From: Defluviitaleaceae bacterium
GTDB taxonomy: Bacteria; Bacillota; Clostridia; Lachnospirales; WQUN01
Assembly: GCA_009786535.1 (NCBI GenBank)
Contig: WQRX01000002.1
Coordinates: forward strand, 41,813 to 76,144
DNA length: 34,332 nt
Reading direction: 5' to 3'
In this document: in pieces, positions 1,394 through 12,763 of the stretch
Layout of the letters: each line of letters starts with the position of its first letter
Numbering within the stretch: position 1 is the stretch's first letter
Made by a program: the position numbers and the translations under genes
Notes under the pieces: generated by a model
What the model saw: only the letters and a program-made list of their open reading frames with translations
Told to the model about the DNA's origin: nothing
Databases searched by the model: none

Positions 1394-3304
1394 TTATTTA
1401 TAATTTATCCAGCACGTCATTTCGCCTACCGCGCGGTTTGCCCACAGGTAGTAGGGAATCCACGTAAGCACCGCGTCCTCGCTTTGGGTTTGCGGTAATC
1501 CCTTCCTATACAATGCATCATTTTCTTCGGGGGAAAGGCGCTGCCCCACCGCCTTAATTTTTACCGCACCGCCAAAGAAGTCTGCATCATACCCCGTGGC
1601 GAAATCCACATCGCCCGTTAGGAAAATGCGGTGCAAGTCGCGCCCGTTGTCGGCTTCTTCCAAGCAATACACCACAGGACCGCGCTGTACGGCAACCTTG
1701 CCCGCGTTTTCCCGTACCGACGGGTGGGCGTGTATCATTTCCACGGGCATGGGAAGGGTGATGGAAATTTCTTCCCCCTCGGCTACGCCACGCAAATAGG
1801 CATAGCCATCTTTTATATCGCACGTTTCAATATTTTTACATGTTAACTGAAAGCCTTCGCACCACGCGGGCATACGCACCGCAAGGGTTGCGCCTGCGAA
1901 GGCTTCGCGGATTTTAATCGTTACGGTTTCCTTGTGCGGATAATCCGTTTCCATGTCTAAGGCAATCTTTCCGCCGTCAAGAACCGTATCCACCGAGCCT
2001 CCCGCAAATAAATTTACATACAGCGTATCTCCGCGTTTTGCATACGCATAACTACCCAGCGAGGTAAGCATACGCGCAAGGTTGGGCGGACAGCAAGAGC
2101 AGCCAAACCATTTTTGCCGCGCTGCTTTTACATGGTGCTTGCCCCTGTCCTTTTCGCAGGCTTCGGGTACAACCTCCAGTGGGTTTACGTAGAAAAATGA
2201 TTTACCGTCCGCCGACATTCCGCTGATTATACCGTTGTATAACGCGCGTTCCATCACGTCCATGTACTCGCCCTTGGGATTGATAGAAAACATGCGCTGT
2301 GCAAAAAACACCAGCGCAATAGATGCGCAGGTTTCTGCATACACCGTATCGTTGGGCAGGTCGTAGCCAAAGCTAAACGCCTCGCCATGGTGGGTAGCCC
2401 CTACCCCGCCTGTGATGTACATTTGCTTGCGGGTTACGTCTTCCCACAAGGTGCTGCACGCGGATAAAAGGGTTTCGTCCCCCGTTTCCCGCGCTACGTC
2501 TGCCATGCCCGCGTACATGTACAACGCGCGCACGGCATGTCCAATTGCCACTTTTTGCTCACGCACGGGCAAGTGGGATTGATGGTACGTATGCCCCGTA
2601 CTTCCGTTGGGGTGTTCGCCGTCAAAATAAAAGGGTCGGCTGCCCCGCTCATTAATAAAGTAGGTAGCCAACCGTAAATGTTTTTCGTCCCCCGTGAGTT
2701 GATACAACTTGACAAGGGCAAGTTCAATTTCTTGGTGACCGGGCACGCCGCGTTTTTTCCCTGCTTCCGCGCCAAAGGTTGCGTCAACTAAATCCACATA
2801 TTTGCATAACGCCTTAGTGAGTTTATCCTTCCCCGTGGCTTGCCGGTATGCTACGGCGGCTTCAATAAAATGTCCAAGGCAATATAATTCATGGTTGTCG
2901 CGCAAATTGGTAAAACGCTTTTCCAGCCCATTTATAATGAAGTACGTGTTTAAATAACCGTCGGGCTGCTGGGCAGAAACAACAAGGTCAATCGTTTCAT
3001 CGGCGAGCTTTTCCAACGGGGCATCGGGGCAAGTCGCCAGGCTATACGCTACGGCTTCCAGCCATTTTGCTACGTCCGAATCTTGGAAAACAAAGCCGTA
3101 AAACTCACCTTGTTCCAAACCTGAAGCAATTCTAAAGTTTTGCAACGCATGGCTTGGGGCGGCATCGGGAATGCGGTCGTTTAACGCTTCCCATTGGTAG
3201 GGTATCACCTGTGTACGCGCAAGCTCCATAAAATTGCGCCAAAATGCACCCTTAATTACCGAGTCCTTTACGCCCAGCGGTTTTGCGTAATTCTTTCTCG
3301 CCAT
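1394..3304 (-). CDS. GH127 beta-L-arabinofuranosidase (DUF1680 / HypBA1-like)
   Basis: The product is a 636-residue protein of the GH127 family, whose type member HypBA1 removes beta-L-arabinofuranose from hydroxyproline-linked arabino-oligosaccharides of plant extensin using a zinc-bound cysteine nucleophile. The expected residues are visible: E308 in HHGEAFSFG matches the acid/base Glu, E324 and C326 in AETCAS match two zinc ligands, and C404/C405 in GCSCCPPNLARM match the remaining ligand and nucleophile. Length and motif spacing agree with HypBA1 to within one or two residues, as I remember it. There is no signal peptide, so the substrate is imported first. An in-frame ATG at 3310 overlaps the recU stop, but GAGGAG lies only 1 base before it and 7 bases before the ATG at 3304, so I chose 3304. 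recU ends at 3307, so translation is probably coupled. GH127 is certain; exact substrate is inferred. Confidence 0.95.
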   Translation of the reverse strand: MARKNYAKPLGVKDSVIKGAFWRNFMELARTQVIPYQWEALNDRIPDAAPSHALQNFRIASGLEQGEFYGFVFQDSDVAKWLEAVAYSLATCPDAPLEKLADETIDLVVSAQQPDGYLNTYFIINGLEKRFTNLRDNHELYCLGHFIEAAVAYRQATGKDKLTKALCKYVDLVDATFGAEAGKKRGVPGHQEIELALVKLYQLTGDEKHLRLATYFINERGSRPFYFDGEHPNGSTGHTYHQSHLPVREQKVAIGHAVRALYMYAGMADVARETGDETLLSACSTLWEDVTRKQMYITGGVGATHHGEAFSFGYDLPNDTVYAETCASIALVFFAQRMFSINPKGEYMDVMERALYNGIISGMSADGKSFFYVNPLEVVPEACEKDRGKHHVKAARQKWFGCSCCPPNLARMLTSLGSYAYAKRGDTLYVNLFAGGSVDTVLDGGKIALDMETDYPHKETVTIKIREAFAGATLAVRMPAWCEGFQLTCKNIETCDIKDGYAYLRGVAEGEEISITLPMPVEMIHAHPSVRENAGKVAVQRGPVVYCLEEADNGRDLHRIFLTGDVDFATGYDADFFGGAVKIKAVGQRLSPEENDALYRKGLPQTQSEDAVLTWIPYYLWANRAVGEMTCWINYK

Positions 3305-3306
3305 CG

Positions 3307-3840
3307 TCATTCTCCTCTAATTTTTATATACTCGTTAATCGCCGTTAAATAATGCACGGGGAAGCCGTTTTTATTTTGCACAAGAAGGCGCGAATTAAAA
3401 TCTTTATAGGGTATAGATTTGCGTCCGCCGTTTTTTTCATTTTTCTTTGCCGCGGCAATGGTTTCGCAGGGCAGTAGAAACATCTCATTTTTTTCTTGGA
3501 AATGGACGAGCAGGAACGCCATGCCCTTCTGCCGCGTAAAGTCTTGCATAAATTCCACTTGGTGGTCGTGTATGTTGCGCAGGGGCAGGCTTAGCCGGCG
3601 GGTTTCCTTTGCGTCAAAACAAATGGGCAAGCCCTGCGCCGCACCAATAAAGTCTACGGTGCTTTTTTTTTCGAAGTAGGCGTGGGTAATGGTGTGCGCC
3701 TTATTATCCACAGCAATGGGCGTAATGGGAGTAGGCACTTTTTGGATAAGGGCAAGCCCTTTTTGGCGGTATAGCTGGTTTGTCATGTCAATTAATTCTT
3801 CAAATAAACTGCCGCGCAAGCCGCGCGTGTTCCATGCCAT
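3307..3840 (-). CDS. recU: Holliday junction resolvase RecU
   Basis: RecU is the Firmicutes Holliday-junction resolvase, a PD-(D/E)XK-fold nuclease that cuts four-way junctions during recombinational repair and chromosome segregation. The 177-residue product shows the family landmarks: an N-terminal NTRGLRGSLFEELI segment, the basic-to-Pro stretch ALIQKVPTPI, STVDFIGA with the first acidic catalytic residue, and CFDAKETRRLSLPL with the D/E-x-K metal-binding core. Length fits the shorter clostridial forms. GAGGGG lies 5 bases before the ATG at 3840. In Bacillus relatives recU sits beside the penicillin-binding protein gene ponA. Here it is instead the first gene of an operon with two arabinofuranosidases, with coding regions separated by only two bases. 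It diverges from the gene at 3904. Confidence 0.93.
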   Translation of the reverse strand: MAWNTRGLRGSLFEELIDMTNQLYRQKGLALIQKVPTPITPIAVDNKAHTITHAYFEKKSTVDFIGAAQGLPICFDAKETRRLSLPLRNIHDHQVEFMQDFTRQKGMAFLLVHFQEKNEMFLLPCETIAAAKKNEKNGGRKSIPYKDFNSRLLVQNKNGFPVHYLTAINEYIKIRGE

Positions 3841-4388: not shown

Positions 4389-5321
4389 CTAAGAAGTAAT
4401 TTTGCGCAGCATTCGCGCTTGTAATACGTAGTGCAACGCAGGGTTTGCCGTAGGCGCGGTAATGGTCAAAATTTGGTCGTACTGCATCACATCTAAACGT
4501 GTATTGTATAAAGAAGCCATGGTAAACTGCTCCACCGCATCGCCAAACGCGGCGTCGCTGGGGTGGTTTATTTTTTTGAAGGGGAAAACATCGGGCGCTA
4601 CATAAAAGGAAAAAATCTCCCAATCAAAATTGCCGTACATCGTAGAAAATTGAATGGTAGGGAACATAAGGAAAAAGTCATATTCAAGGTAGGCTTGCAA
4701 TGCGTCGCGCACGGGACTGTCGGCAGAAACATGGATAACCATGTTATGCTCCTCACCGATGAGCAAGTCCACTTGATGGTCAAGAAAAACCCAGCCATAG
4801 GGCGATGCGCCAAAATCGTTCGTTTCATATTGAAGCACCAGCATATCCATATCCGCAATCAGCAACCGCCCAACGATGTAAGGGTTGTCGTATTCCTCCC
4901 ACAGAGCCACAAATTCGGGCAATGGGTCCATTTGCGGGCGAGGTACGTATACTTGTGTTTCGTAAGGCGGGGTGTAATATGCGTCATTTGTGGTTTCGCC
5001 ATTTATTGGCGGCGCGGTATTTTCTGCCGTGGGCACGGGTGCAGGTGTTGCCACCGCCAACATTGTGGGTGTGTAATAATCGTCGGGGTTAAAGTATGCC
5101 GTATACCAATAAATGACCCCTGTAACCAACGACGCAACGCACAAAAACGCCAAAATACCCACCGTAAACCATGGTATTTTAATTGTTTCATAATTCGGCG
5201 TTAATTCACCGTTAATTTCGGTCGAAATTATCTTCGATTCATTTTGAACCTGACGTGTAATATAAATTACTTCACTTTTTTGTGATTTACGCTGTCCACT
5301 TTTTACCTCATACCATTGCAT
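4389..5321 (-). CDS. Catalytically dead class B sortase-like membrane protein (pseudosortase)
   Basis: The product is 310 residues: a cytoplasmic N-terminus of about 50, one membrane segment at about 51-72, a Pro/Thr-rich linker at about 78-128, and an outer domain with the class B sortase order of elements. These include NPYIVGRLLIADMD (sortase B NPDVVGWIxIPGT), YGWVFLDHQVD (YGSIFLDYRN), the AYLEYDFFLMFPTIQF helix and strand, IFSFYVAPDVFPF, a SLYNTRLDV segment and QILTIT. The catalytic His is probably H197. Where sortases have LTLSTC, this protein has LTITAP, placing Pro at position 290. The catalytic Arg region reads LHYVLQAR instead of ARFVVxAR. The only Cys in the protein is C61, inside the membrane segment. 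It therefore cannot form a sortase acyl-enzyme. It is the last gene of the envelope operon, 11 bases after the DHHW gene; AAGGTGA is its ribosome site. The fold call is strong; a binding or scaffold role is inference. Confidence 0.8.
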   Translation of the reverse strand: MQWYEVKSGQRKSQKSEVIYITRQVQNESKIISTEINGELTPNYETIKIPWFTVGILAFLCVASLVTGVIYWYTAYFNPDDYYTPTMLAVATPAPVPTAENTAPPINGETTNDAYYTPPYETQVYVPRPQMDPLPEFVALWEEYDNPYIVGRLLIADMDMLVLQYETNDFGASPYGWVFLDHQVDLLIGEEHNMVIHVSADSPVRDALQAYLEYDFFLMFPTIQFSTMYGNFDWEIFSFYVAPDVFPFKKINHPSDAAFGDAVEQFTMASLYNTRLDVMQYDQILTITAPTANPALHYVLQARMLRKITS

Positions 5322-5332
5322 TGCTTGTCACC

Positions 5333-6625
5333 TTACCTCGCTGAATATAGTTGTTCTATCAAATCTGCCATTGTGGTTGCCGGTATATAGTTTATAAAAA
5401 CCAAGTCAACGTCATAATTCTCCGCTACTACTTCCAGTACACTTTTATTAAATTGCCGTGGGTCAATTACGACAATTTTTTCATAATGGGGTGCCATCCA
5501 AGGTATCATAGCGTTAGCGAAGGAATCTTTTACCACTACCAGCGTGCGTCCGTTTAAATTTGACGTGGTAAAATAATAAATGTCGCGGTCGCCGCCCAAA
5601 AATATTCGGTAACACAGGTTAGAAATATCGTCGGGTATCACAAACATATTAATCGAAAATGCTGTTCCGTCATTTAACGTGTAGAAATGTATGGTGTCTG
5701 GATGAGCAAGCACGGTACGGTTACGCGTACCCACCGCCAGCGAGCCGATAAAGCCTTCAATCGTGTGTTCAATATAATTTTCAATGGTGATTGGCGCAAA
5801 GCCCGCCGCTTCTGCGAAGGCAAGATAAGCATAATATGCGCCAAGCATGGTCCAGTGGTGGTCGGTACGAAAGAAGATATATTCCTCGGCGTGGGCTTGC
5901 AAAATGCTGTGCGCGTCAACAGGGATAATTGAAGAGTGCAGCAAGCCATTCACAAAATCAATAGTAGTCCGCTGGCAGGAATTTACCGCGGCATACCGCG
6001 CGCCCATAAATTCCACCTTTACGGGTGAGATAACAGAGAAAATACGCAGCGGATTTGTACGACCTTCCAGCGCAATTGCATAGGCGTTTAAAACCTCGGC
6101 ATAGCGTGTTGCCAGTGTCAAATTTTCAATATAACGCAGGTAAAACACAGCATCGGGGTGGAAGTGGATATCCACACCAAAGGGTCGGCTCGGGTCTACA
6201 TTGCCACCCGTAAAAATAGGCACAGGTATGGGGGTTATCACTTCGCCGTCTTCGTCGTATTCAATCATGGGGGGTGCGGGCAGTTCCAGTTGCTGCGGAA
6301 GCTGCGCAGGTATTAACCCCTGCCCCAAATCCGCCGCATCAAACACCACCACCATGCCCCCGCCCTGCCGATGCACCCCATATGAATGCTCCACAATATT
6401 GGCAAAGCTAAGCCAAGTCGTGCGGTTATTTGTATTGTCCAGCAAAAACGACTCAAAGGATTTTGCAAGGTCGCCCCTGATAAAATTGCGAAGCGTGACC
6501 TCGGGGAACGGTTCCATATTTCGGTTTTCAAATTCCGATGCGCGCTCGTCCATGGGTAATACATAGACAAATGCCACCGCAAGAAGAAGTGCGAGGATTG
6601 ACAGCGCAACGTTTAATTTTTCCAT
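5333..6625 (-). CDS. DHHW-family / AlgX-AlgJ-like SGNH O-acetylation protein
   Basis: This 430-residue protein has an N-terminal signal anchor (about 7-25) and an extracytoplasmic AlgX/AlgJ-type SGNH-like domain. The family motif is visible as T-D255-H256-H257-W258-T, and the putative catalytic serine is S368 in VVVKDSFANAM. In characterised systems (alginate, cellulose and Gram-positive wall polymers) proteins of this type accept acetyl groups delivered across the membrane by an MBOAT protein and transfer them to the polymer. The MBOAT gene ends 10 bases upstream, which supports that pairing. A low-complexity insertion rich in Pro, Ile and acidic residues lies near residues 100-150. The polymer modified is unknown; the neighbouring peptidoglycan carboxypeptidases suggest a wall polymer. 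Confidence 0.88.
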   Translation of the reverse strand: MEKLNVALSILALLLAVAFVYVLPMDERASEFENRNMEPFPEVTLRNFIRGDLAKSFESFLLDNTNNRTTWLSFANIVEHSYGVHRQGGGMVVVFDAADLGQGLIPAQLPQQLELPAPPMIEYDEDGEVITPIPVPIFTGGNVDPSRPFGVDIHFHPDAVFYLRYIENLTLATRYAEVLNAYAIALEGRTNPLRIFSVISPVKVEFMGARYAAVNSCQRTTIDFVNGLLHSSIIPVDAHSILQAHAEEYIFFRTDHHWTMLGAYYAYLAFAEAAGFAPITIENYIEHTIEGFIGSLAVGTRNRTVLAHPDTIHFYTLNDGTAFSINMFVIPDDISNLCYRIFLGGDRDIYYFTTSNLNGRTLVVVKDSFANAMIPWMAPHYEKIVVIDPRQFNKSVLEVVAENYDVDLVFINYIPATTMADLIEQLYSAR

Positions 6626-6635
6626 AAGCGCCTCC

Positions 6636-8003
6636 TTAAAACCTAAAATAAATAAACGGCGTAAACGTTTGCCCGATTAACAGCACAAAGCTTACACACG
6701 CTACGCCGAAGTTAAACATCGGCTCGGCTACGGGCATTCTTTCTTTTACATAATGCAAAATGCGAATGGGCGCACGGGTAGAGAAAATGGCAAGTATGGG
6801 CAGTACCCATACATTCGCCATCAGCAATTCTACTGCGCGATAATCGTACCAACTCCCACCAAAACCGAAGAACCGTGCCGTCGCCGTGCCCAGCTGTGCA
6901 AAATCGGTAAAATAGAAGAGAATCCACCCGTACAATACAACAAACAGGCAGTACAGATGTGCAAAAAAGGCGGGGAGTTTCTGCAAAAAATTATTTAATA
7001 AATATTTTTCAATTAATAAAATTACGCCAAAATACATGCCCCAAAGAATAAAATTAAACGATGCACCATGCCATAAACCCGTAGCCGCCCAAACAAACAT
7101 GATATTAAATACAGCGCGTTTTCGGTTGCCGCCCAAGGGTATGTATAAATAATCGCGGAAAAACCTCCCAAGGGAAATATGCCACCGCCGCCAAAAATCA
7201 GTAATAGACTTGGATACGTAGGGGTAATCAAAATTTTCTAAGAAATTAAAGCCGATAATTTTACCAAGTCCTATTGCCATGTCTGAATAGGCGGAAAAGT
7301 CGAAGTAAATTTGGAACATGAACATTATGGCGCCCAACCATATGCCAAGGGTGGACGCATAAGGCGAGCCCAGCAATTCCGCCGCGACTAAGCCCGCATG
7401 GTTGGCGAAGATTATCTTCTTACCAAGTCCCATAATAAAACGCGAAATACCTTGGCTGATTAAAGGCACGGTAATTTCGCGCTTGGTTAGTTCGGCGGCT
7501 ACGTCGCTGTAGCGTACAATCGGTCCTGCCACAAGCTGGGGGAACATGCACACAAAAGTTAAAAATGCGATGGGGTTGCGTTGCGCCTTCACTTTTCCGC
7601 GGTACAAATCAATAGTGTACGACATGGTTTGGAAGGTGTAAAACGATATGCCGATGGGCAACCCCGGTGCAAACGTGACCGATATGCCAAAAATCCCCAG
7701 GAAAAATTCCGTATACTTAAAAATGATAAGCAAGCCCAACGAGGAACACATGGAAAGCACCAACAACGCTTTGGCTTGCCACTTACCGTGGTATCGCTCC
7801 ATAAATAAGCCGATTAAACAGTCCATAGACGCAGAGAAAATAATAAGCACTACCCAAGCGGGTTCGCCCGCGGCATAAAAAAAGAGCGAAAATATAAGCA
7901 GTACAAAGTTTCTGGCGCTAAGATATTTTTTAGGTATGGAGAAATACGCGATAAGAAACGCGGGCAAGAAAAAAACAAGAAAGGTTAAGCTCGAAAACAC
8001 CAT
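6636..8003 (-). CDS. MBOAT-family O-acyltransferase (AlgI/DltB/PatA type)
   Basis: This is a 455-residue polytopic membrane protein of the membrane-bound O-acyltransferase family, which moves an acyl group, usually acetyl, from the cytoplasm to a partner outside. Family signatures are present: FPQLVAGPIVRY in the first half, FWRRWHISLGRFFRDYLYIPLGG, and GLWHGASFNFILWGMY containing the catalytic His at 312. About ten or more hydrophobic segments are visible. It lies 6 bases after the VanX-like gene and 10 bases before the DHHW gene, so it is in the middle of the operon and almost certainly works with the DHHW protein. AlgI-type proteins are of this length and have the same motif order. The acyl donor and final acceptor cannot be read from the sequence. 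Confidence 0.93.
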   Translation of the reverse strand: MVFSSLTFLVFFLPAFLIAYFSIPKKYLSARNFVLLIFSLFFYAAGEPAWVVLIIFSASMDCLIGLFMERYHGKWQAKALLVLSMCSSLGLLIIFKYTEFFLGIFGISVTFAPGLPIGISFYTFQTMSYTIDLYRGKVKAQRNPIAFLTFVCMFPQLVAGPIVRYSDVAAELTKREITVPLISQGISRFIMGLGKKIIFANHAGLVAAELLGSPYASTLGIWLGAIMFMFQIYFDFSAYSDMAIGLGKIIGFNFLENFDYPYVSKSITDFWRRWHISLGRFFRDYLYIPLGGNRKRAVFNIMFVWAATGLWHGASFNFILWGMYFGVILLIEKYLLNNFLQKLPAFFAHLYCLFVVLYGWILFYFTDFAQLGTATARFFGFGGSWYDYRAVELLMANVWVLPILAIFSTRAPIRILHYVKERMPVAEPMFNFGVACVSFVLLIGQTFTPFIYFRF

Positions 8004-8009
8004 ATTATA

Positions 8010-9320
8010 TTATCCCCTAGCAGGCGGCTCGCTGTGTATTTCTTCCGTATAAAAATTGCCTGTAATTCCTGCATTATTTGCCATGTCAATGCTGGGACGA
8101 TGGTCAAAATGCCACCATTCCGACGCCAGCGGATTAAAGCCCGCATTCGCAAAATACCACTGCATACGCACAATACCGCCCGTCATTGCCGCGCCCGTCA
8201 TTTCCACATTTCCACCAAGCACCTGCTGTGCAGAAATACCGCGCGGGGTATTAACTATCGCCGCAGAGGGGCTAAGCTCGTGTATGCGCGTGCCTGCGTT
8301 AATTCGGTCAAATTGCGTGATGTGAATAAACGCATAGTCCCCCGTTTGGTGTATTTCCGAATCGCGGATACGCGCTAACGTTGCATCTACCGCGCCGCCG
8401 CGCTGATGGTTAGACACACCCGTGGAAATAAACCACGTTAATGTCCATGCCGAATCGCGTATCGCGTTACCCACCAACGGCTGGGCGTTCATTAGTTGGT
8501 TCATTGCCGTCACCACCGCTTGCTGGGTGGAATGCGGGCGAAATACTTCATAAACGATTAGCGTTTCGTTATTGGAAAGCGCGAGCTGTTGCACATTATG
8601 CAATGCCCGCGCCATGGTATACATACCGGGCACAATATATTCATAACGCCCAAGGCGATAATTAAAACCGTAAGCGCTGTACAATACTTCGCCCGTGATA
8701 TTGGGCAGGTCAAACCCGCTGGAGCGGAATTCCGCGTCCCGCGCGTTAATAATATCAAAAATTACCGAGGGCAAAACGTCGGGCAAATTAATAAAGCAAC
8801 GGCGATGGTCTACCCAGCCTGTAGTTTCGTTAGGCAAGCGCACGTACCACCATTCGGCTTGTGCATCCAAAATGGTAAAAACACTGCCGGGGGGCAGGCT
8901 AACGATTTGGCTTCCGCCGCCTGCGGGTGCATCACGCAGGGGACTGGTTGCCGCGACCCACCCCGTTGCGCCAATTACGGGCAACTCCGTTAAACCGCCT
9001 TCATAGTGGTAAAAGACCATATCCTCTGCCATGGGGGGAAGCACAAAGCCTTCACCATCCACCTCTTCAAAGGGGTCGCCGATAATGCTTGGGGCTACAG
9101 GGTCGCCGTTTTCGTATGCGGGGGTAGTATCGCCGCCGATTTGCGGCAATTCCAAATTGCCGATAAAAATTAGCAAAATTGCAATGGCTACCATTAACAA
9201 CACCATTATAATTGCTATCTTTACGCCGTCCACACCTGCTTTGCGCCGCCCTGTGGAAACACGGTTTACTTTTTTTAGCAGCGCGTTATTTTCTTTGCGC
9301 CCCGGTCTGTTTAAATTCAT
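8010..9320 (-). CDS. Membrane-anchored VanX-like M15 D-Ala-D-Ala peptidase with SH3b domain
   Basis: The 436-residue product has a basic cytoplasmic tail, one membrane segment at about 33-53, an acidic linker, a bacterial SH3 domain (about 120-170, ending TTGWV) and a C-terminal M15 zinc peptidase. The M15D features are clear: FRPHSTQQAV with the substrate-binding Arg, S-N-H305-Q-R-G-G-A-V-D312 with two zinc ligands, and E401-W-W-H404-F with the catalytic Glu and third ligand. The catalytic domain resembles D-Ala-D-Ala dipeptidase VanX more than carboxypeptidase VanY. Known VanX enzymes are cytosolic, whereas this one faces outward. Its ATG overlaps the stop of the S11 carboxypeptidase gene by 4 bases, so the two are coupled. 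It may cleave D-Ala-D-Ala or stem peptides in the wall; the specificity is not certain. Confidence 0.87.
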   Translation of the reverse strand: MNLNRPGRKENNALLKKVNRVSTGRRKAGVDGVKIAIIMVLLMVAIAILLIFIGNLELPQIGGDTTPAYENGDPVAPSIIGDPFEEVDGEGFVLPPMAEDMVFYHYEGGLTELPVIGATGWVAATSPLRDAPAGGGSQIVSLPPGSVFTILDAQAEWWYVRLPNETTGWVDHRRCFINLPDVLPSVIFDIINARDAEFRSSGFDLPNITGEVLYSAYGFNYRLGRYEYIVPGMYTMARALHNVQQLALSNNETLIVYEVFRPHSTQQAVVTAMNQLMNAQPLVGNAIRDSAWTLTWFISTGVSNHQRGGAVDATLARIRDSEIHQTGDYAFIHITQFDRINAGTRIHELSPSAAIVNTPRGISAQQVLGGNVEMTGAAMTGGIVRMQWYFANAGFNPLASEWWHFDHRPSIDMANNAGITGNFYTEEIHSEPPARG

Positions 9321-10537
9321 TGTTCGCTCCTGTTAAATAAAATCACGCCTGTTTCCATATCCCATGTCACCTGAGTATTGGTTGCATGTGCCACAAATTC
9401 CATAGAAACAAAGATACTGCCGTTAATAATTTGCGCGGGGGTTTCGCCCACAAACACATCGCCGTTTACAATTGCTAAATTGCGCCCGATAAAAAACGTA
9501 ATATTGTCACCGTTCGGGTGTGTTAGCTGCGCAAGCATATGCACACCCTGCCATTCCACCGTATAACCCAGCTGCTCGAACACGGCGCGTATGGGCAGCA
9601 GTGCCTCGCCATGCTTAACGGTTGGGGGCGTATCTAAGGGAAAAAGCCGCCCATCCATAAAGACGCGAATACGCTCGGCGCGTTCTGCCTCTCGTCTTTC
9701 AATTTCATCGAAACCAAATTGCAGTAAGCGGCGGGCATCGCCATGGCGGGATGCATTGTCGGGCGCATTCATTACCACGGCAATAACGCGGCGTCCGTCA
9801 CGTTCCGCCGTTACGGAATGGTTCCACCCTGCTTGGCGAAGTGTACCTGTTTTAAAGCCGTCCGTTCCCGCAAACGGCACACTGGCGCCGGGTAATAAAA
9901 AATTCGTATTATTATAGCGCACGCCGTTAAAATGCATATGAGGGATTGCCGTAATACGCAAAATATCAGGAAAACGGGAAATGAATTCCCGCGTTAGAAT
10001 GGCTATGCTGTACGCATTTGTATGGTGAGGCAGCGCGCCGTGGGAATTGGTGAAGCTGCTGTACATACCCAATTCTGCCGCGACTTCATTCATACGTGCT
10101 ACAAAAACCGCCTCGCTGCCCGAAATATGTTCGGCAAGCACCACCGCCGCCGCGTTCGCAGAAGGCAGCATTAATAATTGCAGAAGTATTTCCACGGAAA
10201 TATATTCCCCCGCGGGCAACGGCACAAAAGACCCCTGCTGCCGCCTGTCGGAAGAAAAAGCCGCAGCGCCCGCGCTTACCCTTATTCGTGTGTCCGGCGT
10301 CAAGTTCCCTGCCTCAATTTCAAGGTATGTAATAAACGCCGTCATGCTTTTGGTCATGCTTGCGGGTATCCAGCGGCGTTCCATTTCCCGTTCGTATAAA
10401 ATTTCCCCTGTATGATAGTCCATCACCACAGCAATAGAGGCGGAAATATTTGGCGCGCCCTGGACGGGCGCAATAAAAAACGCCACCGCGAGTAAAAGCG
10501 CTAATGGCACAATCCATAATTTGCGTAAAATTTTCAT
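9317..10537 (-). CDS. S11 D-alanyl-D-alanine carboxypeptidase (DacA/DacF type) with C-terminal copper-amine-oxidase-N-like domain
   Basis: This 406-residue penicillin-binding protein trims the terminal D-Ala of peptidoglycan pentapeptides outside the membrane. A signal peptide covers about 1-27 (VQGAPNIS region). The three active-site motifs are S60-M-T-K63, S126-A-N128 and K229-T-G231. The C-terminal part (about 290-406), with PPTVKHGEALLPIRAVFEQL and the later ISFVSMEFVAH-like repeat, resembles the copper amine oxidase N-terminal domain common as a wall-associated module in Firmicutes, in place of the usual DacA stalk. An in-frame ATG at 10543 sits 1 base after AAGGTGG, while the ATG at 10537 is 7 bases away, so I chose 10537. 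It is the first gene of the five-gene envelope operon. Confidence 0.92.
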   Translation of the reverse strand: MKILRKLWIVPLALLLAVAFFIAPVQGAPNISASIAVVMDYHTGEILYEREMERRWIPASMTKSMTAFITYLEIEAGNLTPDTRIRVSAGAAAFSSDRRQQGSFVPLPAGEYISVEILLQLLMLPSANAAAVVLAEHISGSEAVFVARMNEVAAELGMYSSFTNSHGALPHHTNAYSIAILTREFISRFPDILRITAIPHMHFNGVRYNNTNFLLPGASVPFAGTDGFKTGTLRQAGWNHSVTAERDGRRVIAVVMNAPDNASRHGDARRLLQFGFDEIERREAERAERIRVFMDGRLFPLDTPPTVKHGEALLPIRAVFEQLGYTVEWQGVHMLAQLTHPNGDNITFFIGRNLAIVNGDVFVGETPAQIINGSIFVSMEFVAHATNTQVTWDMETGVILFNRSEQ

Positions 10538-10630
10538 TTGCATCCCACCTTAACAAAATTCGCGGGGATTATATCACAATTCTTCTTTAAGGGCTATATA
10601 TATGCCTTTTAAAATTTACCGTCGCGCAAA

Positions 10631-10704: not shown

Positions 10705-12621
10705 CTACGTATTAATTTCGTCCATCAGGTTGCCAATGTCTTCCGATTTTTGCTTAATGCCCGCAACGTTGTTGGTAATAGCACCCGTAGCTTGGCGGAT
10801 TTCGTTAATCTGGTCGGCTAGGGTAGATGTGCTTTCGGCTAAGCGATGCAATACCTTGGAGATATTGTCGTTATTGTCGCGGTTTTTGGTTGCGGCGGTC
10901 ATGGATTTTTTGGCAAGGTCGCCTACTTCGCTCGCTACTACGGCAAAACCTACGCCAAATTGCCCTGCGTGCGCCGCTTCAATGGCGGCGTTGATGGACA
11001 GGATATTGGTATTACGGGCAATATTGGTAATTTCACCAATGCTTGCGGTTAACTGCTTAAATACGTCCTGTACTTCCTCCAAGGCTTTTTGCATTTCCAT
11101 ACTGTGCGAAACGGCTTGCTCTACACGGCTGTTAATGGCGGTTGTATCCTCCGCAATGCTAATATTATCGGTAGAAAGTTGTGAAATTAATTCGCTAATC
11201 GAGCCGAAGGTATCCACAATGCGTTGCGCGCCTACTAACTGTGCTTTTAACTGCTCTTTAATAAAGTAAACACAGTTTTCGGGCAGGTTAATGCCCAACG
11301 CAATGGCTTGCGCCATTTTTTTGCAAGTAGGATACCCGCACGAGCAGCAGTCGATGGTTTTATCCAGTTCGCTATGTTTGTGCAGCGCTTCGAAAGCTCT
11401 ATTTGTTTCCGAGTTTCCTGCCCACACGCCCGAATTATAATTAGTATACGAGCAAACAAAGTCGTTTAGCTTCAAGTCCTTATAATAATCACGCAGACCT
11501 TGCAAACGCTCGGCGGGATTGGTCATAATTTTTGGCTTGCCCGTCACTTCGTCCATGACCACGTTGCCTTCTTCATCATGATATTGGTATTCCGCGGCAT
11601 ACTGCACTTGCTTACGCACGTGGAAGGTTTTAATCATTGCATAGTCGGTATGCCCTGTTCTTCCCTCTGTCGCTGTACCAAAGTTACAGCCGCGTCCGCA
11701 ATTTAAGCAGTCGATAAGGTGCGGCGTAGTGCTTACTTTGTGTATCCATGAATTAAATTCACGTAAAAACGGATAGAGATGGCGCTCGCCTTCGGCTTGC
11801 AGTACCAGCGCATCCGGACCCACATAGAAGGCTACATTTTCCTTTAAGCCGCCGGGGATGGGGTACAATGCACCCATACCGTAGTCAACCTCGTCATTTA
11901 CTTTGGGGTAATTACGAATGCTGCGACCGCCCGTATCTCGACGAATGTATTCCATCATATTCTTAAAGGTCACGTTGTAGCCGATAAGACCTTGCCCGCG
12001 AGGGGATTCAATCTCCACTTTTTTGGCAATACAGGGGCTAAGAAAGGCGAGTTCGTCGCTAAGGCCCTTGTACTTTTTCAAGTGAATAGCGGTACACATC
12101 ATGGGGCTTTGTATGGGGATAAGCTGCTTTAACATTTCGGGATGGTGCTTTTCGATAAAGCTAACCACGGCGGGGCATGGCTGAGAGATAGCCGCCTGTG
12201 CGCCATGCTGTTTAATGTATTCCAAATACGCCCAAGACGTAATGTCTGCCCCATAGCTAACGCTGTAGAAACGTTTTACGCCTTTTTCTTTTAAATAACC
12301 GAGAATATGCTCGTATTCATCGCCGTAGTTTAATAACATTGCGGGCGCGATAAGTACAGAAATGTTTTTACCTTGCTTAAGTGCGTCGAAGAATCTTTCC
12401 GTATCATCTTTAAACTTGCGCACACCGTGGGTGCAGGTATCTATGCACGTGGCGCACAAAATGCATTCCTTTCCATCGGTGTACACGTGCAGTGTGCCGT
12501 CATCGGCGGGTACTACTACGTTTGCTTTCAACTCCGGGCATTCGCGAATGCAGTTGTTACAACCTATGCAATTTTCTTCATCGGTGTAGATTAATCCCTT
12601 GTTTAAATCTGCTCTTGCCAT
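10705..12621 (-). CDS. [FeFe]-hydrogenase-like H-cluster protein fused to a chemoreceptor signalling domain
   Basis: The 638-residue soluble protein has three parts. First are two [4Fe-4S] ferredoxin motifs (C18/C21/C24/C28 and C53/C56/C59/C63). Next is an [FeFe]-hydrogenase large-subunit domain with L1 SQPCP (C149), L2 SPCIAKK (C197) and L3 NCGRGC (C308/C312), followed by a CGYPTC iron-sulfur motif. Last is a chemoreceptor-type hairpin (about 530-575; NAAIEAAHAGQFGVGFAVVA) with coiled-coil arms. In L1, catalytic hydrogenases have two adjacent cysteines; here the first, the proton-relay Cys, is Pro. In L2 the usual Met-Pro-Cys is Ser-Pro-Cys. These changes fit the sensory, low-activity classes (HydS-like). 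There is no membrane segment. ATG 12621 is chosen because GGGGGA precedes it by 8 bases; the longer frame to 12726 crosses the promoter region. A role in sensing H2 or redox state is inferred. Confidence 0.85.
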   Translation of the reverse strand: MARADLNKGLIYTDEENCIGCNNCIRECPELKANVVVPADDGTLHVYTDGKECILCATCIDTCTHGVRKFKDDTERFFDALKQGKNISVLIAPAMLLNYGDEYEHILGYLKEKGVKRFYSVSYGADITSWAYLEYIKQHGAQAAISQPCPAVVSFIEKHHPEMLKQLIPIQSPMMCTAIHLKKYKGLSDELAFLSPCIAKKVEIESPRGQGLIGYNVTFKNMMEYIRRDTGGRSIRNYPKVNDEVDYGMGALYPIPGGLKENVAFYVGPDALVLQAEGERHLYPFLREFNSWIHKVSTTPHLIDCLNCGRGCNFGTATEGRTGHTDYAMIKTFHVRKQVQYAAEYQYHDEEGNVVMDEVTGKPKIMTNPAERLQGLRDYYKDLKLNDFVCSYTNYNSGVWAGNSETNRAFEALHKHSELDKTIDCCSCGYPTCKKMAQAIALGINLPENCVYFIKEQLKAQLVGAQRIVDTFGSISELISQLSTDNISIAEDTTAINSRVEQAVSHSMEMQKALEEVQDVFKQLTASIGEITNIARNTNILSINAAIEAAHAGQFGVGFAVVASEVGDLAKKSMTAATKNRDNNDNISKVLHRLAESTSTLADQINEIRQATGAITNNVAGIKQKSEDIGNLMDEINT

Positions 12622-12763
12622 GCGATGTTTCCCCCACTCGTAAATTATTTTGACATGACGAAGCATATCAAAATATATTGTAAATACATCAAAAATGATT
12701 ATAACCTTGTTTCTATATAAGTGCAACTTATTTATAAATAAAACTTATTCAAATAAATCTCAT

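Follow-up and report, generated by a model that had tools for sequence, protein, structure and literature searches.

A sortase-derived pseudoenzyme that is likely a non-catalytic partner of a neighbouring MBOAT-DHHW O-acyltransferase in Defluviitaleaceae

Sortases attach proteins to the cell wall and are known to work as cysteine transpeptidases; a sortase-like gene without the active-site cysteine raises the question of what its product could still be doing in the cell. Here, the question concerns a gene that we call pSrt (pseudo-sortase gene) in a Defluviitaleaceae bacterium (assembly GCA_009786535.1), carried on a stretch of 34,332 nucleotides of contig WQRX01000002.1 (positions 41,813 to 76,144) that is referred to below as the window. 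A first-pass annotation of the window had described the gene as a class B sortase homologue without its catalytic Cys, maintained as a pseudoenzyme in a putative wall O-acetylation operon. We find that pSrt has lost the His, the Cys and the Arg of class B sortases, and since the genes of its family adjoin the same likely wall-acetylating enzyme at all ten loci, the protein is likely a non-enzymatic helper of that enzyme.

The catalytic columns were placed by three joint alignments of 51 family members with 24 sortases, and three further members were later added to the column counts (n = 54). All three catalytic residues are present in each of the 24 comparison sortases. In the family, the Cys column holds Pro in 50 members, Gln in two and Glu and Ala in one each but never Cys, and the Arg column holds Phe in 34, Tyr in 13, His in three and Trp, Lys, Ser and Asn in one each but never Arg. 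The window protein has Pro at the Cys position and His at the Arg position, as had been described. The His column holds Pro in 36 members and is lost as His in 52, with only P0051 and P0056 retaining it. The earlier assignment of H197 as the probable catalytic His did not hold, as this residue occupies the Tyr position of the YGH motif: pairing it with the His of Bacillus anthracis SrtB in a single-sequence alignment needs a two-residue gap, and the joint alignments together with the divergent P0051, which reads Y-D-H there, place the column at residue 199, a Ser in the window protein. No new conserved nucleophile was found in the old active-site columns, which are mostly Pro or aromatic, and a Cys elsewhere within the last 180 residues is present in 5 of 53 members. 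At L050:4312-6395, two copies lie in tandem, the first (P0051) with His kept and Glu at the Cys position and the second (P0057) with Ser and Ala at these positions, a possible picture of stepwise catalytic loss.

The comparison set consisted of 23 of the 29 non-family sortase-like frames (L011, L013 and L015 shortened at the N end) together with P0052, which was removed from the family as an ordinary sortase. Left out were second copies in L017, L018 and L025, the long L032, the distant L001 from the host genome itself and the degenerate L024. The Cys is present in 28 of the 29 frames, as judged by a regular expression and, for three motifs, by eye.

The fold itself appears to have been kept. 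In the structure model, a confidently predicted domain aligns with the sortase B barrel, the N terminus and the linker are poorly predicted, and there is a single predicted transmembrane helix. The predicted barrel and the N-terminal membrane anchor are shared with class B sortases, as are N193, E235, F237, D282 and T286. The curated class B sortase models (TIGR03064, PF04203) nevertheless do not recognise the window protein, which scores 41.5 bits against the TIGR03064 cut-off of 153.75 and gave no match in a Pfam scan; the other SrtB of the same genome is likewise below the TIGR03064 cut-off (124.9). The Pfam Sortase model (PF04203) matches none of the 51 family members but all 24 comparison sortases. 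This is also a practical annotation problem, as five family members (P0005, P0011, P0013, P0051 and P0057) carry the name "class B sortase" in public records yet are without the catalytic Cys and Arg.

In the protein search, 51 members scored E 3e-45 or better; the next match, well separated from them, was an ordinary sortase at 6.5e-11. A profile search, which scored only the 7996 candidates with most words in common, added two members, and locus L049 added one. A tree, midpoint rooted for drawing, was built from 53 members (all but the L049 copy) together with 27 class B sortases and P0053, a degenerate sortase. In it, the pSrt members form a single clade with support of 100/100, to which six sortases encoded in genomes of the same bacterial family are joined (98/89). 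P0053 (L078:9094-9945 in G045, same order but another family) had been considered as kin, since it is a degenerate class B sortase with YGK and TITAPS for YGH and TLSTC, but this was ruled out by its position outside the clade on a very long branch. No MBOAT or DHHW gene was seen by eye among the listed frames of L078 5000-16000 around it, and G045 gave no DHHW match. P0053 sits between genes that we take to be aminotransferase-like and ComEA-like, and the other two hits of G045 are ordinary sortases.

The pSrt gene does not look like a relic. Its frame runs unbroken over 310 codons and starts 11 bases past the DHHW gene, with the upstream AAGGTG overlapping the end of that gene, and it is the last gene in a tight cluster that also encodes, in order, an S11 D,D-carboxypeptidase, an SH3-M15/VanY-like peptidase, an MBOAT and the DHHW protein. 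Over nine loci (without L050), the differences per site at the three codon positions are 0.41, 0.33 and 0.63 for pSrt and 0.30, 0.19 and 0.60 for DHHW, a pattern of purifying selection that is weaker than for DHHW. A decaying, functionless sortase hitch-hiking in the operon is an explanation that we give almost no credence: pSrt does evolve faster than its neighbours (mean distance of 0.75 versus 0.36 for MBOAT and 0.55 for DHHW), but dozens of homologues show no frame damage, the codon-position bias is present and the tail is conserved to the last residue. Together with the well-supported clade, this lends good support to the maintained pseudoenzyme of the first-pass annotation, of which the loss of Cys and Arg stood and the His fell. 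Neither of the two outcomes that the annotation had named as speaking against it was seen, as the structure model shows the sortase barrel and every family copy next to DHHW is without the Cys.

The neighbourhood was compared over ten loci, the window and L042-L050. An alignment scan of genome contigs returned 10 loci, one of which, L051, is an ordinary sortase and was excluded from the locus counts; a scan of the same contigs with the single pSrt protein found nothing. The named loci come from metagenome-assembled genomes, seven labelled Defluviitaleaceae and two Oscillospiraceae, and the sample codes Lab288, Emb289, Th196 and Co191 stand for higher-termite guts (PMC7024585). DHHW lies immediately upstream of pSrt at all ten loci with a gap of -11 to 360 bases and MBOAT precedes DHHW at nine, the tenth being truncated by the end of its contig. 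The Cys is missing from all 11 family copies that adjoin DHHW. Among 38 genomes of the host family, pSrt is present in seven, and the same seven have the MBOAT at 71-100% identity; the other 31 have MBOATs at no more than 53% identity or none at E 1e-20. Of 392 genomes sampled from the order, 8 matched at E 1e-55, seven belonging to the host family; of 391 sampled from the class, 1 matched, the host genome itself.

The neighbouring enzymes look competent and carry motifs of known wall O-acetylation systems, which supports the putative wall O-acetylation operon of the first-pass annotation. Across the ten loci, the DHHW proteins all have the KDS, DHHW (TDHHW in eight, LDHHW in two) and DPRQ motifs, Gln replacing the Tyr of DxRY, and searches of the structure database (PDB) with the DHHW protein matched 4NZK (E 5e-32) and PatB1 (E 5e-7). 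PatB1 is a secondary-wall-polysaccharide O-acetyltransferase in whose triad KDS supplies the Ser, and TDHHW the Asp and the His (PMC9487903). The MBOAT resembles DltB, and all nine MBOATs on the loci end in FXYXXF, an acyl shuttle; in PatA, its Tyr receives the acetyl group and supplies PatB (PMC12148441). Judged by these motifs, the MBOAT-DHHW pair appears to be catalytically complete, in keeping with a non-catalytic role for pSrt. The S-layer polymer is a possible acceptor but is not indicated by pSrt: SLH domains occur in all 38 host-family genomes and do not discriminate, and neither SLH nor PF04230 has a match on the contig of the window, the two PF04230 matches of the genome lying elsewhere.

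Conservation in the family has moved to the two ends of the protein. In the transmembrane helix, G68 and W72 are invariant in all 54 members, and P50, S64, T67, Y73 and Y76 are kept in at least 90% of 51. In the tail, R303, R306, T309 and S310 are identical in all 54 and Q301 and I308 in 53, every member ending in Thr-Ser within the pattern R-x-I-T-S. Such a conserved helix and tail are not seen in the comparison sortases. Mean entropies are 1.33 bits for pSrt versus 2.68 for sortases over residues 50-80, 0.41 versus 1.65 over residues 296-310 and 1.19 versus 1.59 over the domain, although the two sets are unequal in diversity and the sortase transmembrane helices align poorly, which lessens what these values can lend to a partner role. 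We infer that the helix and the tail are contact sites. The invariant Thr-Ser end was considered as an acyl carrier but was dropped, as the Tyr of the FXYXXF end already gives the MBOAT a shuttle of its own and a PatB enzyme did not accept O-acetyl-Ser as a donor (PMC12148441).

The loss of the sortase catalytic residues is shown and the barrel is predicted; with moderate confidence, we regard pSrt as a sortase-derived pseudoenzyme, anchored in the membrane, that likely serves as a non-catalytic subunit of the MBOAT-DHHW O-acyltransferase encoded next to it. In such a complex, the MBOAT would move an acetyl group onto its own C-terminal Tyr peptide, and DHHW would take the acetyl group on its Ser and pass it to a wall polymer, perhaps the secondary cell wall polysaccharide. 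pSrt would dock on the pair through its helix and tail, and the old sortase groove could hold a partner or the acceptor such that DHHW is aligned with the MBOAT and the substrate. A more specific version, distinctly unlikely in our estimate, builds on the groove with which true sortases hold a short peptide beside a C-terminal membrane helix: here it would be reused to grip the FIYFRF hexapeptide of the MBOAT and hand the acetylated peptide to DHHW, making pSrt a peptide-shuttle chaperone.

Several observations weigh against a subunit of the acyltransferase. In G020, a 122-residue end fragment of DHHW that falls in the same clade (57% identity) is not followed by a pSrt, and this genome, which is 70% complete, gave no match to the pSrt family at E 1e-10. 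FXYXXF also ends all eight checked MBOATs without an adjacent pSrt (of 42 further MBOAT matches in genomes of the host family; three of the eight are in pSrt genomes), which indicates that pSrt belongs to a single lineage of this system and is not generally needed. The correlation of pSrt distances over nine loci (without L044) is 0.83 with MBOAT and 0.75 with DHHW but nearly as high with DacA (0.73), so it does not single out the acyltransferase and was discarded as proof of a partnership. The cluster also contains two D,D-peptidase genes, either of which could encode the partner. In G016 (L038:10227-11210; locus L038/L049), the gene 74 bases behind pSrt encodes a class B sortase that has kept YGH, TC and R, a possible sign of protein anchoring.

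The native ligands of the sortase fold are a short peptide and a wall-precursor amine, and pSrt could still bind a sorting-signal-like or wall stem peptide uncut, either recruiting the acetylation enzymes or the two D,D-peptidases to places where the wall is assembled or modulating a real sortase. A ligand of this kind had already been suggested in the first-pass annotation. The DacA and VanY-like peptidases of the cluster and the intact sortase of G016 favour this explanation, as does the presence of at least one further class B sortase match in all seven pSrt genomes of the host family (residues read for some only), including an ordinary one with YGH, TLSTC and Arg elsewhere in the host genome. 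However, a separate sortase stands at only one of the ten loci; moreover, the family departs from sortases in residues of the His loop (N172, M173 and F179 in L010 numbering) and of the TLSTC strand, including the LST that precedes the Cys, so the native ligand may no longer fit. We consider this explanation rather unlikely. More improbable still is that pSrt is the wall-peptide binding subunit of the DacA/VanY-like peptidases with the acyltransferase merely a neighbour. DacA heads the cluster at nine loci and lies behind pSrt in L044. The VanY-like gene lies between the S11 and MBOAT genes at seven of the nine loci showing MBOAT, with about 700 bases to its neighbours in L048, and behind pSrt in L044, L047 and L050, while DHHW and pSrt remain adjacent at all ten. 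A different catalytic activity using new residues of the barrel is very doubtful: Q164, N193, E235, N273, D282, T286, Q301, R303, R306, T309 and S310 are invariant polar residues in 51 of 51 members, but Q164, N193, E235, D282 and T286 are common to sortases, the other five besides N273 are in the tail, and the old active-site columns have gained no nucleophile.

Known systems offer partial parallels to the proposed subunit of the MBOAT-DHHW enzyme. PatA1/PatB1 of the Bacillus cereus group share the DHHW motifs and the FXYXXF end (PMC9487903, PMC12148441), but the portions of PMC9487903 drawn on here name no sortase-like third gene and place patB1 near csaB and S-layer genes. AlgF of alginate O-acetylation is likewise a proposed non-enzymatic linker of acetylation enzymes (PMC10641220) but is periplasmic with two beta-sandwich domains, unlike the predicted barrel and membrane helix of pSrt. 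DltX of D-alanylation also accompanies an MBOAT-SGNH pair as an additional protein and has a conserved C terminus, but it is a microprotein that itself carries the FXYXXF shuttle (PMC12148441). A literature search of openly licensed papers found no published sortase pseudoenzyme or protein of this kind.

Table 1. Coordinates of pSrt, its parts and neighbouring genes in the window
Feature	Position	Strand	Description
pSrt (pseudo-sortase gene)	4389..5321	-	310 aa, class B sortase relative without catalytic residues
Transmembrane helix, predicted	5091..5171	-	pSrt residues 51-77
Sortase B barrel, predicted	4401..4925	-	pSrt residues 133-307
H197	4731-4733	-	Tyr position of YGH in pSrt
Ser199	4725..4727	-	at catalytic His position of pSrt
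Pro290	4452..4454	-	at catalytic Cys position of pSrt
His297	4431..4433	-	at catalytic Arg position of pSrt
C-terminal tail LQARMLRKITS	4392..4424	-	pSrt residues 300-310
DHHW (SGNH-like) protein, PatB1 type	5333..6625	-	TDHHW, KDS, DPR motifs; 11 bases upstream of pSrt
MBOAT O-acyltransferase, DltB/PatA type	6636..8003	-	terminal acyl-shuttle hexapeptide FIYFRF (6639-6656)
SH3 + M15/VanY-like peptidase	8010..9320	-	cluster gene
S11 D-Ala-D-Ala carboxypeptidase (DacA) + copper amine oxidase N-like domain	9317..10543	-	first cluster gene
GH127 protein	1394-3310	-	near aceric acid hydrolase model
Hydrogenase-chemotaxis fusion	10705-12726	-	one chain

Two other genes of the window were noted. The GH127 protein comes near the aceric acid hydrolase model (E 2e-135, below the cut-off), and its gene adjoins the cluster also in L033 and L034. 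The product of the other gene is a single chain that combines an iron-only hydrogenase C-terminal domain with 4Fe-4S motifs and a methyl-accepting chemotaxis signalling domain; it is possibly a redox or hydrogen sensor.

In conclusion, a clade that has dropped the chemistry of sortases but is predicted to keep their fold, and whose genes lie next to those of an MBOAT-SGNH acyltransferase, would amount to a family of sortase pseudoenzymes with a new partner. A helper role in acetylation, if true, would be a new job for the sortase fold, and pSrt would offer a way into the question of what keeps MBOAT and SGNH proteins together during wall acetylation in Gram-positive bacteria.
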